DNA of 64,000 bases from Planctomycetota bacterium. Lineage in GTDB: Bacteria; Planctomycetota; Phycisphaerae; Phycisphaerales; SM1A02. The translations under genes and the position numbers were made by a program. The notes below the pieces were generated by a model. The model made no database searches. It was not told the DNA's origin and was given only the letters and a program-made list of their open reading frames with translations. Location: NCBI GenBank assembly GCA_022560875.1, contig JADFSH010000004.1, forward strand, positions 1 through 64,000, written 5' to 3'. Of the stretch, positions 24,441-30,380 are shown one piece after another (positions within the stretch are counted from its first letter, which is position 1; each line of letters starts with the position of its first letter).

Positions 24441-25778
24441 TTATGTGGTGGCGATACGCCAATCCGTTGCGTTATCCGGATCGCGCTCGACAGGGCGGTA
24501 GAGCGTGTCGCGCTCGACGGGCCTGAAGCCCGCATCGCGGATGGCTTTCTGCAAGTCCCACACGCCGGTTTCCTGGTGGGTGGGATCGCCATCGCTGTCG
24601 GAGATCAACTTGGTGATGTCGTACCAGACCACGGTGCCGTCGATGTCGTCGGCGCCGTTGAGGAGCATGAACTGGGCCATCTCCAGCGATTGCATGATCC
24701 AGAACGCCTTGACGTGGGGAAAGTTGTCGAGCATGAGTCGGCAGATTGCCAGCGTGCGCAGGTTCTCCAGCCCCGTCGGAGCGGGCAGATGCTCAAGCTC
24801 GCTCTTATCGGGGAAGAAAGGCAGGGGGGTAATCGTCTGGTAGTAGCCTGCATCGCACGTTTCGGGCATGGGCAGACGCTCATCTGGGTAGCCGGCATCT
24901 TCACCTGAGAGTACGACTGCTTCTGTCTCCATGCCTTGATGGTCTGCCGCGGCTTGCAGGGCTATGCCCTGATCCGAAGCCCACTGCTTCAGGGTGCGAT
25001 CCTGCTCCTCGCGCAGCAGCATCATATGGGTGATGCGCTCGGACCGCTGCTCGATATGACCATACAGAATCGTCGCGTTGGTGTTCAACCCCAGTTCGTG
25101 GGCCGCCTGATGAACCTCCATCCACTGCCTGGCCTTGATCTTGCCCTTATACGCCTCATCATGAACCCGATCATCGAACACTTCCGCCCCTCCCCCCGGC
25201 AGGGAGCCCAGGCCTGCATCCTTCAGGTCTTTCAAGACTGACTTGATCCCATCGTAGCCCTCCTTGCCACGCTTGGAGATACGCGCGAGGTGAACAATCT
25301 CCACGGCGGTGAAGGCCTTGATGTGCAGTCGTGGGGCGGCATCATGAATGATCCGCATCATGTCCGTGTAATAGTCAAAGCCCAGCCAGGGATGCAGCCC
25401 CCCCACAATATGAATCTCCGTGGCCCCCCCGGAAACAGCGTTCCTGGCTTCCTCGGCAATCTGCTCAAGTGAATGCTCATACGCTCCATCCTCGTCCTTC
25501 TTTCGATAGAACGCACAGAACTTGCAGCTCAGGGCGCAGATGTTGGAGTAGTTCAGATGCCGGTTGACGTTGTAGTAGGCGATATCGCCATGCATACGAC
25601 GACGGACGAGATCGGCCAGTGAGCAGACGGTCCAGATATCGGGCGTCTGGTAAAGGAGATTACCATCGGCTTCAGTGAGTCTGACGCCAGCACGCACTTT
25701 TTCATCAATGGCCTTGAGACGGGAGTCAACGCGAGGCAGGACGCCAGTCGTGACCGGATCAAGATGAAGGGTGCTCAT
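24441..25778 (-). CDS. mqnE: Aminofutalosine synthase (radical SAM)
   Basis: A 445-residue radical-SAM enzyme of the futalosine route to menaquinone, which adds the carboxyvinyl compound to adenosine to make aminofutalosine. The radical-SAM triad is CALSCKFC (C81, C85, C88). IHIVGGLHPWLGFDYY and the TNATILYGHIE region match the family. It is longer than usual (about 370-390). The extra length sits at about residues 263-310, between REEQDRT and GYYQTITPLPF, as an insertion of roughly 45 residues. The gene stands alone; other mqn genes are not in the window. Presence of mqnE implies menaquinone without the chorismate/menF route. Confidence 0.93.
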   Translation of the reverse strand: MSTLHLDPVTTGVLPRVDSRLKAIDEKVRAGVRLTEADGNLLYQTPDIWTVCSLADLVRRRMHGDIAYYNVNRHLNYSNICALSCKFCAFYRKKDEDGAYEHSLEQIAEEARNAVSGGATEIHIVGGLHPWLGFDYYTDMMRIIHDAAPRLHIKAFTAVEIVHLARISKRGKEGYDGIKSVLKDLKDAGLGSLPGGGAEVFDDRVHDEAYKGKIKARQWMEVHQAAHELGLNTNATILYGHIEQRSERITHMMLLREEQDRTLKQWASDQGIALQAAADHQGMETEAVVLSGEDAGYPDERLPMPETCDAGYYQTITPLPFFPDKSELEHLPAPTGLENLRTLAICRLMLDNFPHVKAFWIMQSLEMAQFMLLNGADDIDGTVVWYDITKLISDSDGDPTHQETGVWDLQKAIRDAGFRPVERDTLYRPVERDPDNATDWRIATT

Positions 25779-25829
25779 TGAAATGATCGATTCCTTGTGT
25801 AATCAATAGAGACGAATCATCTTAGCCGG

Positions 25830-25844
25830 TTGGAGTGTTCCTCA
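25830..25844. repeat. Left 15-bp direct repeat (candidate attachment site)
   Basis: TTGGAGTGTTCCTCA, exact copy at 28018-28032. Bases after it partly match too (G-G-G-A-C versus A-G-A-A-C). Confidence 0.6.
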
Positions 25845-25969
25845 GGGACAAATTGCATCACCATTCCCAACCCAAATACGGCCCTACGATATCGCCAGTG
25901 CGGATGAGTGAACGCGTGTTGTGGCGGGTTGCGACGTATATCGTTCCGGTTGGGTGACAAGATTGGGTG

Positions 25970-26320
25970 TCAATGGCCCGGATCACCGATAAAGAATCTT
26001 GACATCCCGCCCCCGGATCTCGGAAGATACCAGTCCAAGGATAAAGTCGGGTGATTCTCGGAAACGATGAGTCGCCCGGTTTTTATTTGCCCTCGCCCAA
26101 ATTCAAGGCCCCCATGCGAGGGCGTATCTCGGAAACCGTGAGACTTTGAGACACGCTTAGATCGAAGTTCGATAGAATGCGACCAGCAAGGGGGGATCAG
26201 CCCCTGGTACACCCAACGATCAATCGTGCCGCGCGACACGTCCATGATGTCAGCCGCCTCATCGAAGTTGATGCGGTTGTCCATGTTGATGAGTCCGGTG
26301 GTTAGGGTGTCAGGGGGCAT
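25970..26320 (-). CDS. Excisionase-like helix-turn-helix protein, probably decayed
   Basis: A frame of up to 116 residues. Near the N-terminus it shows a MerR/excisionase-type helix-turn-helix: INFDEAADIMDVSRGTIDRWV, then YQGLIPP. After this the sequence loses the pattern expected of the family and looks like read-through into unrelated DNA. It overlaps the upstream frame by 11 bases. Starts at 26320 or 26284 are both possible. Small helix-turn-helix genes of this type accompany tyrosine recombinases in integrative elements, and a recombinase remnant lies 1.3 kb to the right. Probably once a directionality factor; activity is doubtful. Confidence 0.45.
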   Translation of the reverse strand: MPPDTLTTGLINMDNRINFDEAADIMDVSRGTIDRWVYQGLIPPCWSHSIELRSKRVSKSHGFRDTPSHGGLEFGRGQIKTGRLIVSENHPTLSLDWYLPRSGGGMSRFFIGDPGH

Positions 26321-26657
26321 TGTGAGCCCCCCTTACTGTCTGAAGGGCTGCTTTGTCGTAATCTCCGGGTTGGATAAACAATGGCCATAGCAAATTGCCT
26401 TCGTGTTCTTCTCGTAGCCGCAGGTCATCTCTTACGCGGGGATCGGCCAGTCGAAAGAGAGCGTCGTGGAAGTTGAATAGGATTCTGTCGTCGGCCCACG
26501 TCTCCCTCACATGACATAGCACTGCGCAGTCGTCGGTCGGGTTCGCTTCCGGTAGTCCTGCGGTTCGTGAAAGTCGGTTGGCGACATCCACGAGCGATCG
26601 CCCACCAGAGCGAGACCTGAGCAGCGACGTCCTCGCCATCGTATGGGATTCGATCAT
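26310..26657 (-). CDS. Unknown small protein of the integrated element
   Basis: About 115 residues from the ATG at 26657; GGAGG lies 11 bases upstream, a rather wide gap, and a GTG at 26711 is also possible. The protein is hydrophilic with many Arg, Asp and Leu, including LSRTAG, a DDCAVL stretch and HALFRLADPRVRDDLRLREEH (a likely helix). No motif or membrane segment was recognised. It overlaps the helix-turn-helix frame downstream, as element genes often do. It may be real or partly decayed. Confidence 0.4.
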   Translation of the reverse strand: MIESHTMARTSLLRSRSGGRSLVDVANRLSRTAGLPEANPTDDCAVLCHVRETWADDRILFNFHDALFRLADPRVRDDLRLREEHEGNLLWPLFIQPGDYDKAALQTVRGAHNAP

Positions 26658-26780
26658 GCAGTCACGATCCTCCAACGTCTTTGGTCTGTGTCGAGCGTTT
26701 AGGCGCCCCACCTTGAGAGCTCGTGTTATACTTGCAGATTGGTTGGATGGGTCACCCCGCTTTCTTAAGGTCGATTTCCG

Positions 26781-27548
26781 ATGAATGATTCACCATCTAA
26801 GTGGACACTAGCTCAAAAACGTGAACGCCATTTTTATGAAACTCGTGCCGCTTCGCACGAGGGTCGTAACGAGGTTTATGCCGAGTTTCACGCCCCTTTC
26901 TGGAAAGCGATCCTCAACCGACTGACTGAATTGGATTTTCGTGATGACGGCTATTACGTCGACGTCGGCTGCGGGCCAAACCCAATTGTCGCGTTTGTGG
27001 AACACGGTAATCGGATCGGTGTCGATCCATTAATGCCGTTTTATCAAGAGAACTTCGTACTGCCCGAAGCGTTTCAGCCATTCGAGGGCACCATCGAAGA
27101 GTTAACTCCGATCAAGGACGGTCAAGCCGACGTTATTTTCTCGATGAACAATATCGATCATATTCAGAATCTTGACCAAGCGATTGCCACGTTGCGGCGC
27201 AAACTAAGGGATGATGGCTTCCTAGTGATCTCGGTCAATGTTGTCGGCAATCCCATCGCTAAGTTGATGGCCAAGGCGATTGATATTTATCGGGTGGTCG
27301 ATCCGACACACACCTACCATTTTCACTCACCGCAGGAAGTCAGGAACCGGCTTGCCGAGCATTTCGATCTCGTTCGTTACGAGTGCATCGAGCAGTTGTC
27401 CGAAGAAATGCAAACACGCAAGAACGAACGAGACAAACAGGTCAAGACATTGAAGGGACTGGTTCGGCAAGGTCTCAAGTTCGTGAAGAACGATCTGATT
27501 CTAAGAGAGAAACTGCATCTCTTTCTGTTCAAACCGAAATCCGGGTAG
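26781..27548 (+). CDS. SAM-dependent methyltransferase, cargo of the integrated element
   Basis: A 255-residue class I methyltransferase. YYVDVGCGPNP (motif I, binds SAM), GVDPLMPFY and DVIFSMNNIDHI follow the usual fold, with a mixed charged C-terminus. Base use is visibly richer in A and T than in the neighbours, a sign of transfer. The gene lies between the two 15-bp repeats and just before the recombinase remnant, so it is probably cargo of the element. The family includes many small-molecule and sugar methyltransferases; the substrate is not visible. No methylated-DNA motif or restriction partner is present. Confidence 0.75.
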   Translation: MNDSPSKWTLAQKRERHFYETRAASHEGRNEVYAEFHAPFWKAILNRLTELDFRDDGYYVDVGCGPNPIVAFVEHGNRIGVDPLMPFYQENFVLPEAFQPFEGTIEELTPIKDGQADVIFSMNNIDHIQNLDQAIATLRRKLRDDGFLVISVNVVGNPIAKLMAKAIDIYRVVDPTHTYHFHSPQEVRNRLAEHFDLVRYECIEQLSEEMQTRKNERDKQVKTLKGLVRQGLKFVKNDLILREKLHLFLFKPKSG

Positions 27549-27580
27549 GGCGAGTCGTCTTGGCCCTCAGGCATCTTCAG

Positions 27581-27919
27581 ATGCAATCAACGACTTGCTT
27601 TGTATTCGTTGATCTGGAACAGTTGGCCCGGACTCAGACCCGCATGATGCTGGATGGAACGATGAAGCCCGCGAGATACCTGATACCGTTCCTGTGCGAG
27701 AGTCTCCACGAGATTCAAGACCGGGCGGGCGTAGCTCGTGGTCGGATGCATGATTTCCAGGCGACGTTTTGTAGCCGACTCGCATCAGCACATATCCCGC
27801 TTCATGAGTTGCAGCGTTTATCGGGTCATGGTGATATCGCTACGCTGGCTAAGTTCTATCTGGCCCCACAAGAGGGCGCGGCGGATCGCGTGAGGGCGGC
27901 GCTGGCATCGGTCGCGTAA
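27581..27919 (+). pseudogene. C-terminal remnant of a tyrosine recombinase (integrase)
   Basis: About 112 codons at the 3' end of a longer open frame. They match the C-terminal catalytic part of phage/element integrases: VFVDLEQLA, IQDRAGVARGRMHDFQATF, then LQRLSGHGDIATLAKFYLAP with the third His and the catalytic Tyr. The usual His-x-x-Arg box (HDLR) reads HDFQ, so a catalytic Arg is lost. The N-terminal DNA-binding and first catalytic Arg regions are missing. It cannot be an active integrase. It is adjacent to a terminator at 27958 and the right direct repeat at 28018, as expected for an integrase at an element end. Confidence 0.65.
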
Positions 27920-27957
27920 TGCGGGCGGGTGACAAGCAGGTGACAACGAACGAAAGC

Positions 27958-27980
27958 AGCCCGTGCAAGCGGGCTTTTTT
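27958..27980 (+). terminator. Short Rho-independent terminator after the integrase remnant
   Basis: AGCCCG (27958-27963) pairs with CGGGCT (27970-27975) around a six-base loop, followed by a run of T. Confidence 0.75.
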
Positions 27981-28017
27981 ATTCAATGAGGCGGGTTTTA
28001 AGTGAGGGTTTGTGTAA

Positions 28018-28032
28018 TTGGAGTGTTCCTCA
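28018..28032. repeat. Right 15-bp direct repeat (candidate attachment site)
   Basis: TTGGAGTGTTCCTCA, exact copy of 25830-25844. Confidence 0.6.
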
Positions 28033-28232
28033 AGAACTACCCAGAATGATCAAACAGGCATATTTTTCATAACCCCTTTGTCTACAGATATTTCCACTTA
28101 TACGACTTGATGCGAAAACTAGGCCCGTCGATAACGTAGGAGCCGTGATTCACCGGTATCTCGGCCTGAAACGACTCGGACGAAGCCACGTTCGAGCCGC
28201 AGGGGTAGTTGACGCAATCGAAGGAGGCGGAG

Positions 28233-30380
28233 ATGCCACAGAAGAAAAAGACCACGCCAAAAGAAGGCTCCGCAGAGACGCAAACTGACCATAGCGACAG
28301 TAGCGAGATTCCGAATATCTCCCCGCCGCGTGGCTTCTCTCCCAAGGATGACAAGAAACTTCAGGATCTCACCTCGGGCATCCAGGAAAGTACTCATCAG
28401 TTTCCTTCAGAGGCGATCAAGGAAGTCCTCAACGTGCTGATGGTGGTGGAGCGACAGTTCGACAAGCTTCGTGATGAACAGCAGAAACAGGAAGCGGTGT
28501 ACGATGAACTGATTCAGAAAATTCAGGTCATCGAGAAAGCCGAGTCGAAACTCAGTAACGATCGCAAGAAGCTTGCCGCCGACCGAAAAAAAGTCGCTGA
28601 AACAGACAAGATTGCTCTGGAGATGATCGAAGAAAGTCGGCAGACCCTCCTGCAGAAACAGAAACAATTTCAGTCCGAACGCCAATCGAGTGTCAAAGAA
28701 CTCGCAAAACTGCGCAGCGAAATCGAACAGGAGTCAAAGTCGCTTCATGCCGAACGCAATAATCTGATTCAAAAAACGGAAAAGGCGGAAAACAAGGCCC
28801 ATGAGCATTCACATATAATTGAGGAACTCAACGCCGACCGTACGAAACTAGCCGCCCGAGTCGAGCAACTGCAGGATGAGGCTCAACAGGCTACGCACCG
28901 AGCCAAGAAAGCTTCCCGTGAAACTCAAGAACTTGAGTTACAGACTGTGAGTCAGCGAGAAGATGTTCAATCGCGTATCGATGAACTCCAGGGCGATCGC
29001 AATCTCCTGAACGCCCGCGTGGAGGAAATAGAGCAGGAACGCAACAATCTTCTCCGCCTGCGGGATGAGGCCGAGGCCCGAAACCAGGAACTTGAACTCC
29101 GTCTCGGCGAAATGACCGATCAGGGCGAACTCCTTCAAAATCGCCTTGATGAAATCCAAAATGAGGGTAATGGAAATGAGACGCATGCCGACTCATTGCA
29201 TGATCGCATCGCCCAACTCGAAGAGGACCTTGCCGATCGTGATCGCGTGATTGCCTCATTGCAGGAGCAAGCCAAATCAGTCTCTGGGAAGGAGATGACT
29301 GCACAATCGGCTGCTGAGGAAAGCGAAATACAGACGCTCCGGAATCGAGTGGCCGAGCTTGAAAATGAACTCGCCGCCGCGCGAAAGGCATCCTCCGGGC
29401 CGATGAATGATCCGAATGAGTCACCCCCCGCCGATCTCGAGCAGATCAAGGAGAACCTGAAGGAGGCCGCGATTCACCTGCACCGTCGCCAGGAGCGGTT
29501 GCACCGGGCTCGCCGGTTAGCACGCGAAAGCAGGCAAACGTCGACTCAGGTCAAACCTCAAGCGTTACCAGCGCAAACCCACGAGGAAGAGGCCGATCTC
29601 AAACGCTGGGTCCAAAACCAGCGTCAGCGTCTTGCTCACGATCGGACAAGGCTCAAGGACATGGAATCGCGTATGATCAAGATATGGGCTCCCCGGAACG
29701 CCGCGCTGATCGTTTCCGCCCTGGGTCTGCTCCTGACCATACTTGTCGTGGCGAGTTGGCTGACGACAAGTTATGTATTCCCCGCTCACATTTCCGCATC
29801 GGTAACGCTCAAACCCAAAACCAGCAGTCTTGATCCCCTGACCGAAGAGCAGACTGCCAGTTGGCAGCTATGGCATGCGGAACTCGTGCAGGATGACGGA
29901 TTCAAGAAGACGCTGCTCAAGCGTATGCGGGATCGCCAGATGCCAGTTGAAACCATCGATCTGGATGAGTTCTTGGAGGAAAACCTCAGCCTCGACACCG
30001 GTATGCCCGGCGAACTGACGATGACGCTCAGCGGCACAAAGAAGCTGGAAATCACGGATCTGCTCGACGTGATCACTTCAACCGTACTGACCGAATCCAG
30101 TCGCCAACTCAAAAAACGCACCGATGGCGCCATTGCCACGGCATCCAACGAGCGAAAGGAGAGCGGCATCAGTCGTTACGCCGTCATCAATCCCACCGCG
30201 ATCCAAGATCATCGCAAGTTCTGGATGGCGCCAATATTCCTCCTGTATGGCGTACTGGCGTTCGGCGTGTTCAAGTTCGCCCTCAATCAGATGACTCAGG
30301 TGAAGCGCGTAATCAATGAAGAGGTCATTGATACGGACGAAAGCGAGATCTTCAACGACGATGTCCTGACCTCTGATTGA
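28233..30380 (+). CDS. Long coiled-coil membrane protein with Wzz-like two-helix topology
   Basis: A 715-residue protein. The N-terminal 50 residues are polar and probably disordered; from about 50 to 470 it is a long coiled coil rich in Glu, Gln, Lys and Arg with heptad-like spacing. The first membrane helix lies near residues 488-512 (AALIVSALGLLLTIL) and a second near 662-683 (FWMAPIFLLYGVLAFGVF), with a soluble domain of about 150 residues between them. This layout, with residues such as ISASVTLKPKTS after the first helix and YAVINPTAIQ just before the second, resembles chain-length regulators (Wzz/GumC). The coiled coil then lies inside the cell. The ATG at 28233 is fixed by GGAGG in front. 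The family is uncertain. Confidence 0.65.
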   Translation: MPQKKKTTPKEGSAETQTDHSDSSEIPNISPPRGFSPKDDKKLQDLTSGIQESTHQFPSEAIKEVLNVLMVVERQFDKLRDEQQKQEAVYDELIQKIQVIEKAESKLSNDRKKLAADRKKVAETDKIALEMIEESRQTLLQKQKQFQSERQSSVKELAKLRSEIEQESKSLHAERNNLIQKTEKAENKAHEHSHIIEELNADRTKLAARVEQLQDEAQQATHRAKKASRETQELELQTVSQREDVQSRIDELQGDRNLLNARVEEIEQERNNLLRLRDEAEARNQELELRLGEMTDQGELLQNRLDEIQNEGNGNETHADSLHDRIAQLEEDLADRDRVIASLQEQAKSVSGKEMTAQSAAEESEIQTLRNRVAELENELAAARKASSGPMNDPNESPPADLEQIKENLKEAAIHLHRRQERLHRARRLARESRQTSTQVKPQALPAQTHEEEADLKRWVQNQRQRLAHDRTRLKDMESRMIKIWAPRNAALIVSALGLLLTILVVASWLTTSYVFPAHISASVTLKPKTSSLDPLTEEQTASWQLWHAELVQDDGFKKTLLKRMRDRQMPVETIDLDEFLEENLSLDTGMPGELTMTLSGTKKLEITDLLDVITSTVLTESSRQLKKRTDGAIATASNERKESGISRYAVINPTAIQDHRKFWMAPIFLLYGVLAFGVFKFALNQMTQVKRVINEEVIDTDESEIFNDDVLTSD

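Follow-up and report, generated by a model that had tools for sequence, protein, structure and literature searches.

A probable remnant of a small tyrosine-recombinase integrative element between mqnE and a coiled-coil gene in a Phycisphaerales genome

In a planctomycete draft genome (3.66 Mb in 226 contigs, 90.7% complete), some 2.2 kb of additional DNA lies between an mqnE-type gene and a coiled-coil gene, which raises the question of whether this stretch arrived by site-specific integration and, if so, in what condition it persists. The window, meaning the whole 64-kb stretch of DNA analysed, is part of contig C60, and protein searches of genome collections returned Phycisphaerales MAGs as the relatives of its genome. 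The original prediction described a decayed integrative element, bounded by exact 15-bp direct repeats regarded as attachment sites and enclosing an excisionase-like frame, a compositionally deviant methyltransferase, and an integrase stub. The stretch is very probably the remnant of a small tyrosine-recombinase-type integrative element that was inserted site-specifically at TTGGAGTGTTCCTCA and has since decayed; its features are collected in Table 1.

Table 1. Features of the insert and its flanks, in window coordinates
Feature	Position	Strand	Basis or remark
Left flanking host gene, MqnE/MqnC-CofH radical-SAM family	24441..25778	-	Best NCBIfam match MqnE, 412 bits, under the cut-off of 434.55
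Left 15-bp direct repeat, putative attL core	25830..25844	+	20-nt form (25830-25849) matches right copy at 18/20
Left-end non-coding segment common with contig C27	25861..25959	.	72% overall, 30/33 over GGTTGNNACGTATATCNTTCCGGTTGGGTGACA
GGGTGACAAG, left copy, putative recombinase arm-type site	25952..25961	+	Within the block best conserved on C27
Truncated excisionase-type helix-turn-helix (HTH_17, TIGR01764-like)	26190..26320	-	Pfam and family searches
133-aa frame overlapping the HTH start	26310..26711	-	Possibly no gene
Class-I SAM-dependent methyltransferase (Methyltransf_11), complete, 255 aa, putative cargo gene	26781..27548	+	Pfam, low GC
Tyrosine recombinase C-terminal stub, ~119 aa	27557..27919	+	PF00589 positions 114-169 of 172
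GGGTGACAAG, right copy, putative recombinase arm-type site	27927..27936	+	Followed by AGGTGACAA at 11-bp spacing, likewise putative arm-type
Intrinsic-terminator-like hairpin downstream of integrase	27958..27981	+	Homologous to the relic on contig C10
Right 15-bp direct repeat, putative attR core	28018..28032	+	Exact match to left copy
Right flanking host gene, coiled-coil protein	28233..30380	+	Syntenic with mqnE in relatives

Insert edges and the element-free locus

The predicted repeat pair is present as two exact copies of TTGGAGTGTTCCTCA, 2188 bp apart from start to start, and the similarity extends to 20 nt in the form TTGGAGTGTTCCTCARGRAC. In a scan of the window with an exact 14-base seed and copies within 6 kb, TTGGAGTGTTCCTCA is the sole family of direct repeats reaching 15 nt. 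The longest substring common to the outer non-coding stretches (25779-25969 and 27920-28232) measures 15 nt, against a maximum of 14 and a mode of 7 in 1500 dinucleotide-preserving shuffles. The possibility that the 15-mer is common throughout the genome, raised with the original prediction, is not borne out: the 3.66-Mb assembly has the two exact copies at the locus and no others, and its six matches with one or two mismatches are close to the three obtained with a reversed control pattern. A one-mismatch match on contig C30 falls in what reads as a membrane-protein frame. The exact 15-mer occurs three times in the 399 other genomes of the order, where about 2.5 occurrences are estimated by chance. 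The occurrence at L239:1501-1515 (contig C48 of genome G096), considered as a possible attachment core, was judged to be chance; it lies about 200 bp upstream of an unrelated tyrosine recombinase gene and in an apparent coding frame, and a position upstream of an integrase gene is not the expected one. Viral contigs gave 22 single matches, none near a detectable integrase, and in the collections searched the 15-mer was not found adjoining any full-length relative of the integrase from which the stub derives.

Comparison with related genomes, as had been proposed, yields an element-free locus at the level of gene order: the coiled-coil gene lies upstream of mqnE in 26 related loci, and the insert genes are in none of them. 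The start-to-start gap between the two genes is 262 bp in a same-genus relative, and subtracting one 2188-bp repeat unit from the window gap of 2454 bp leaves 266 bp, within 4 bp of that relative, with the coiled-coil start codons picked by eye. The joined flanks align to the same-genus gap with a score of 90, compared with a mean of 57 and a maximum of 88 for 300 shuffles. In the nearest relative (MqnE 74-76% identical) the gap is too diverged and has no recognisable 15-mer, and a genome with a single 15-mer copy between otherwise alignable flanks was not found in the collections searched. Old integration, as originally proposed, is thus supported, but the names attL and attR for the two 15-mers are given provisionally because the sampled genomes contain no identical empty site. 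The integration site has no tRNA gene. A -10-like TAAGAT (25819-25824, minus strand) upstream of mqnE is common to the window and the same-genus relative, and the left repeat starts a short way upstream of it, so the insertion may have altered what is predicted to be the mqnE promoter.

Illegitimate recombination could also have gained or rearranged the 2.2 kb, with an integrase fragment carried along and the 15-bp repeat arising by coincidence or as junction microhomology. Exact repeats of this length, separated by no more than a few kb, are not especially rare (by a rough estimate about 0.2 per 64-kb window), the searched collections hold no nucleotide-level empty site, and joining of this kind is seen inside the insert, where integrase homology begins at 27557, 9 bp past the methyltransferase stop, and an illegitimate joining therefore occurred within the element. 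However, the repeat falls right at insertion edges that synteny sets independently, with the gap lengths agreeing at 266 and 262 bp, the shuffled edges fall short of its length, and remnants of an integrase and an HTH gene lie at opposite ends of the insert, with homologous ends elsewhere in the genome. Together these observations make illegitimate recombination improbable as the origin of the whole insert, and site-specific integration is the preferred reading.

Truncated recombination genes and a low-GC methyltransferase

The C-terminal tyrosine recombinase stub predicted next to the right repeat is indeed there. A full-length relative of 470 aa aligns with it collinearly over residues 272-405, and no other parts of that relative were found in the element. 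The Arg-I region is missing and the tyrosine is kept, while the HxxR box reads HDFQ, with Arg-II changed to Gln (HDFQATF, compared with HDLRRTY/F in relatives and HAMRHTF in the solved Int of 6EMY); the catalytic arginines have therefore been lost. Because only about 119 C-terminal residues survive and Arg-II is Gln, the locus is a relic and not a functional element: judging by its own genes it is dead, and excision by its own integrase is impossible. Relatives of the stub were matched in 17 of 251 genomes of the order, all weakly, and the best relatives are approximately 30-47% identical over the stub. None was found in viral contigs, and phages gave eight weak matches.

Among the related integrases, the genes at L203, L204, L208, and L209 have ends that overlap tRNA-Asp, and one further gene stops 88 bp short of tRNA-Ser. 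Since the closest full-length relatives have their ends within a tRNA gene or shortly ahead of one, an integrase 3' end facing the attachment site fits; the orientation of the stub towards its site agrees with that of its relatives and the target differs. No TGACAA-type repeat pair was seen by eye downstream of the related integrases. The four tRNA-Asp cases are full-length integrases from other genera of the order, each ending inside a tRNA-Asp gene on the opposite strand (L203:11597-11671, L204:10638-10712, L208:4589-4663, and L209:4691-4765).

The helix-turn-helix frame resembles excisionases, as predicted, but has only a partial domain. It scores 27.5 bits with Pfam HTH_17 (cut-off 27), covering just profile positions 4-31 of 51, and stays below the cut-off for TIGR01764. 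Its open frame reaches 25970, yet family similarity stops after "...YQGLIPP," and translations of all three minus-strand frames, read by eye, contain no recognisable continuation. With both the integrase and the HTH gene truncated, the description of the element as decayed is borne out. Searches of Pfam, PHROGs, NCBIfam, and PADLOC assigned the 133-aa frame to no family, 250 genomes of the order contain no relative of it, and it may be no gene.

The methyltransferase does differ in base composition as had been noted: its GC content is 0.487 (48.7%), compared with a window mean of 0.569 (56.9%) and a standard deviation of 0.029 for 768-bp windows, which places it at the 0.7th percentile. Its relatives are distant, with the best at about 29-34% identity in the sampled genomes of the order and phylum, none in viral contigs or PDB sequences, and one weak match among plasmids. 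PADLOC matches of the HTH and the methyltransferase to mads_1/mads_2 are partial and weak and were dismissed. No relaxase or transfer genes were present among the four insert ORFs scanned. Apart from integrase/excisionase and weak methyltransferase matches, PHROG searches gave no convincing phage structural, packaging, or replication gene, and the element DNA matched none of 50,697 phage records. A transposon insertion with the 15-bp repeat as target-site duplication would give direct repeats around an intergenic insertion, but 15 bp is long for such a duplication, the recombinase remnant belongs to the tyrosine integrases, and this origin, hardly credible, is rejected because the insert ORFs searched gave no transposase match.

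Homologous element ends on other contigs

Both ends of the element have homologs in the same genome. The left end matches contig C27 (E 4.8e-5), and on realignment the homology runs outward through CCGGTTTGAGATTCTTCCCA, a sequence resembling the left repeat. The integrase 3' end with its terminator matches contig C10 (71% over 112 bp, E 1.4e-5), where the realigned homology stops roughly 17 bp short of the right repeat. The best-conserved C27 block (30/33) contains GGGTGACA, which is consistent with a binding site. The nested 10-bp repeat proposed near both ends is exact at both positions, and GGGTGACAAG has no further exact copies in the window; the pair alone is weak evidence, and its copies may mark arm-type binding sites.

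On the plus strand, positions 25999-26090 contain a TTGACA-type site and, approximately 45 bp further on, a hairpin resembling a terminator (-24.1 kcal/mol). The hairpin has a counterpart at C193:11105-11150 (85% over 46 bp), and the stretch with the TTGACA has one on C93; together they may represent a small RNA or a terminator module that these places have in common. A search of Rfam matched no RNA family.

Other repeated sequences were observed in this genome. A dispersed repeat with the core CCCGGAACAAGTCCCGAGAGGCTCA is found in 20 places at up to 3 mismatches, compared with none for a reversed control (loci L210-L229; examples are L134:2770-2794, L134:3357-3381, and L133:1792-1816). Upstream sequence is also common to the copies (...GTCCGTAACGCGAGCCGGTTCGTCAGT.TG), many of which follow gene ends coding ...WGACP and several of which are near contig ends. 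Two copies (587 bp start to start) enclose a 130-aa cysteine-rich frame (L134:2918-3310) beside the C10 integrase relic. Short tyrosine recombinases with frames of about 216-253 aa and DNA approximately 81-85% identical are present on contigs C193, C93, and C90 (two copies) of the same genome (G000), at or near contig ends, which suggests a multi-copy mobile family.

A minimal element mobile in trans, excised via its repeats by another integrase of the genome, would agree with two intact and identical repeats and with the other full-length integrases present. However, the ten integrase-family matches in the genome include no intact integrase of the stub's family, the only recognisable relative of the stub being a contig-end fragment on C212 (47% over 59 aa), and the 15-mer is absent elsewhere in the genome; mobility of this type is therefore very improbable.

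Proposed history and comparison with known systems

Under the preferred reading of site-specific integration followed by decay, a tyrosine recombinase would have joined a circular element to the chromosome at a site with TTGGAGTGTTCCTCA in the mqnE/coiled-coil intergenic region, leaving the TTGGAGTGTTCCTCA core at both element ends. The original layout would have had an integrase gene pointing at the right end and a divergent excisionase-type HTH gene at the left. Most of the element length would later have been lost, with the integrase cut down to its last ~119 codons without the catalytic arginines and the HTH gene deprived of its second half, and the low-GC methyltransferase, which now abuts the integrase stub, would have been captured; the order of the deletions is conjectural. 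Integration at the 15-bp core with subsequent deletion and methyltransferase capture would account for an insert that is edged by repeats, contains truncated genes, and interrupts synteny. It is conceivable, though unlikely, that the relic has been kept for a functional, domesticated methyltransferase cargo and that the insertion also exchanged the sequence preceding the predicted mqnE promoter and so changed how this menaquinone-pathway gene is expressed.

The locus is thus a mobile-element fossil that is well supported but of an ordinary kind. A literature search on the relic found nothing specific to it, and the mechanism and decay pattern of such relics are already well known. What the locus adds is a probable record of site-specific integration at an intergenic site that is not a tRNA gene, in a planctomycete order that has received little study, together with a testable attachment core.

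Like the tyrosine-recombinase integrative elements (prophages, ICE/IME, and satellites), the relic has direct-repeat cores at both ends, an integrase 3' end facing one end with an excisionase-type HTH at the other, a compositionally deviant cargo gene, and a locus that is empty in relatives. Unlike intact integrative elements, its integrase and HTH are truncated and its insert ORFs include no transfer or structural gene; its site is intergenic and not a tRNA gene. The Int protein of PDB 6EMY, which we take to be Tn1549 Int, has the C-terminal catalytic box of tyrosine recombinases in common with the stub, but the match is insignificant (E 0.08) and in the stub Gln replaces the HxxR arginine. 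The most similar full-length architecture is that of the tRNA-Asp integrases of other Phycisphaerales genera (L203, L204, L208, and L209): the stub matches the C-terminal region of these proteins at approximately 28-36% identity, and while the ends of their genes overlap tRNA-Asp, the site of the relic is without a tRNA.
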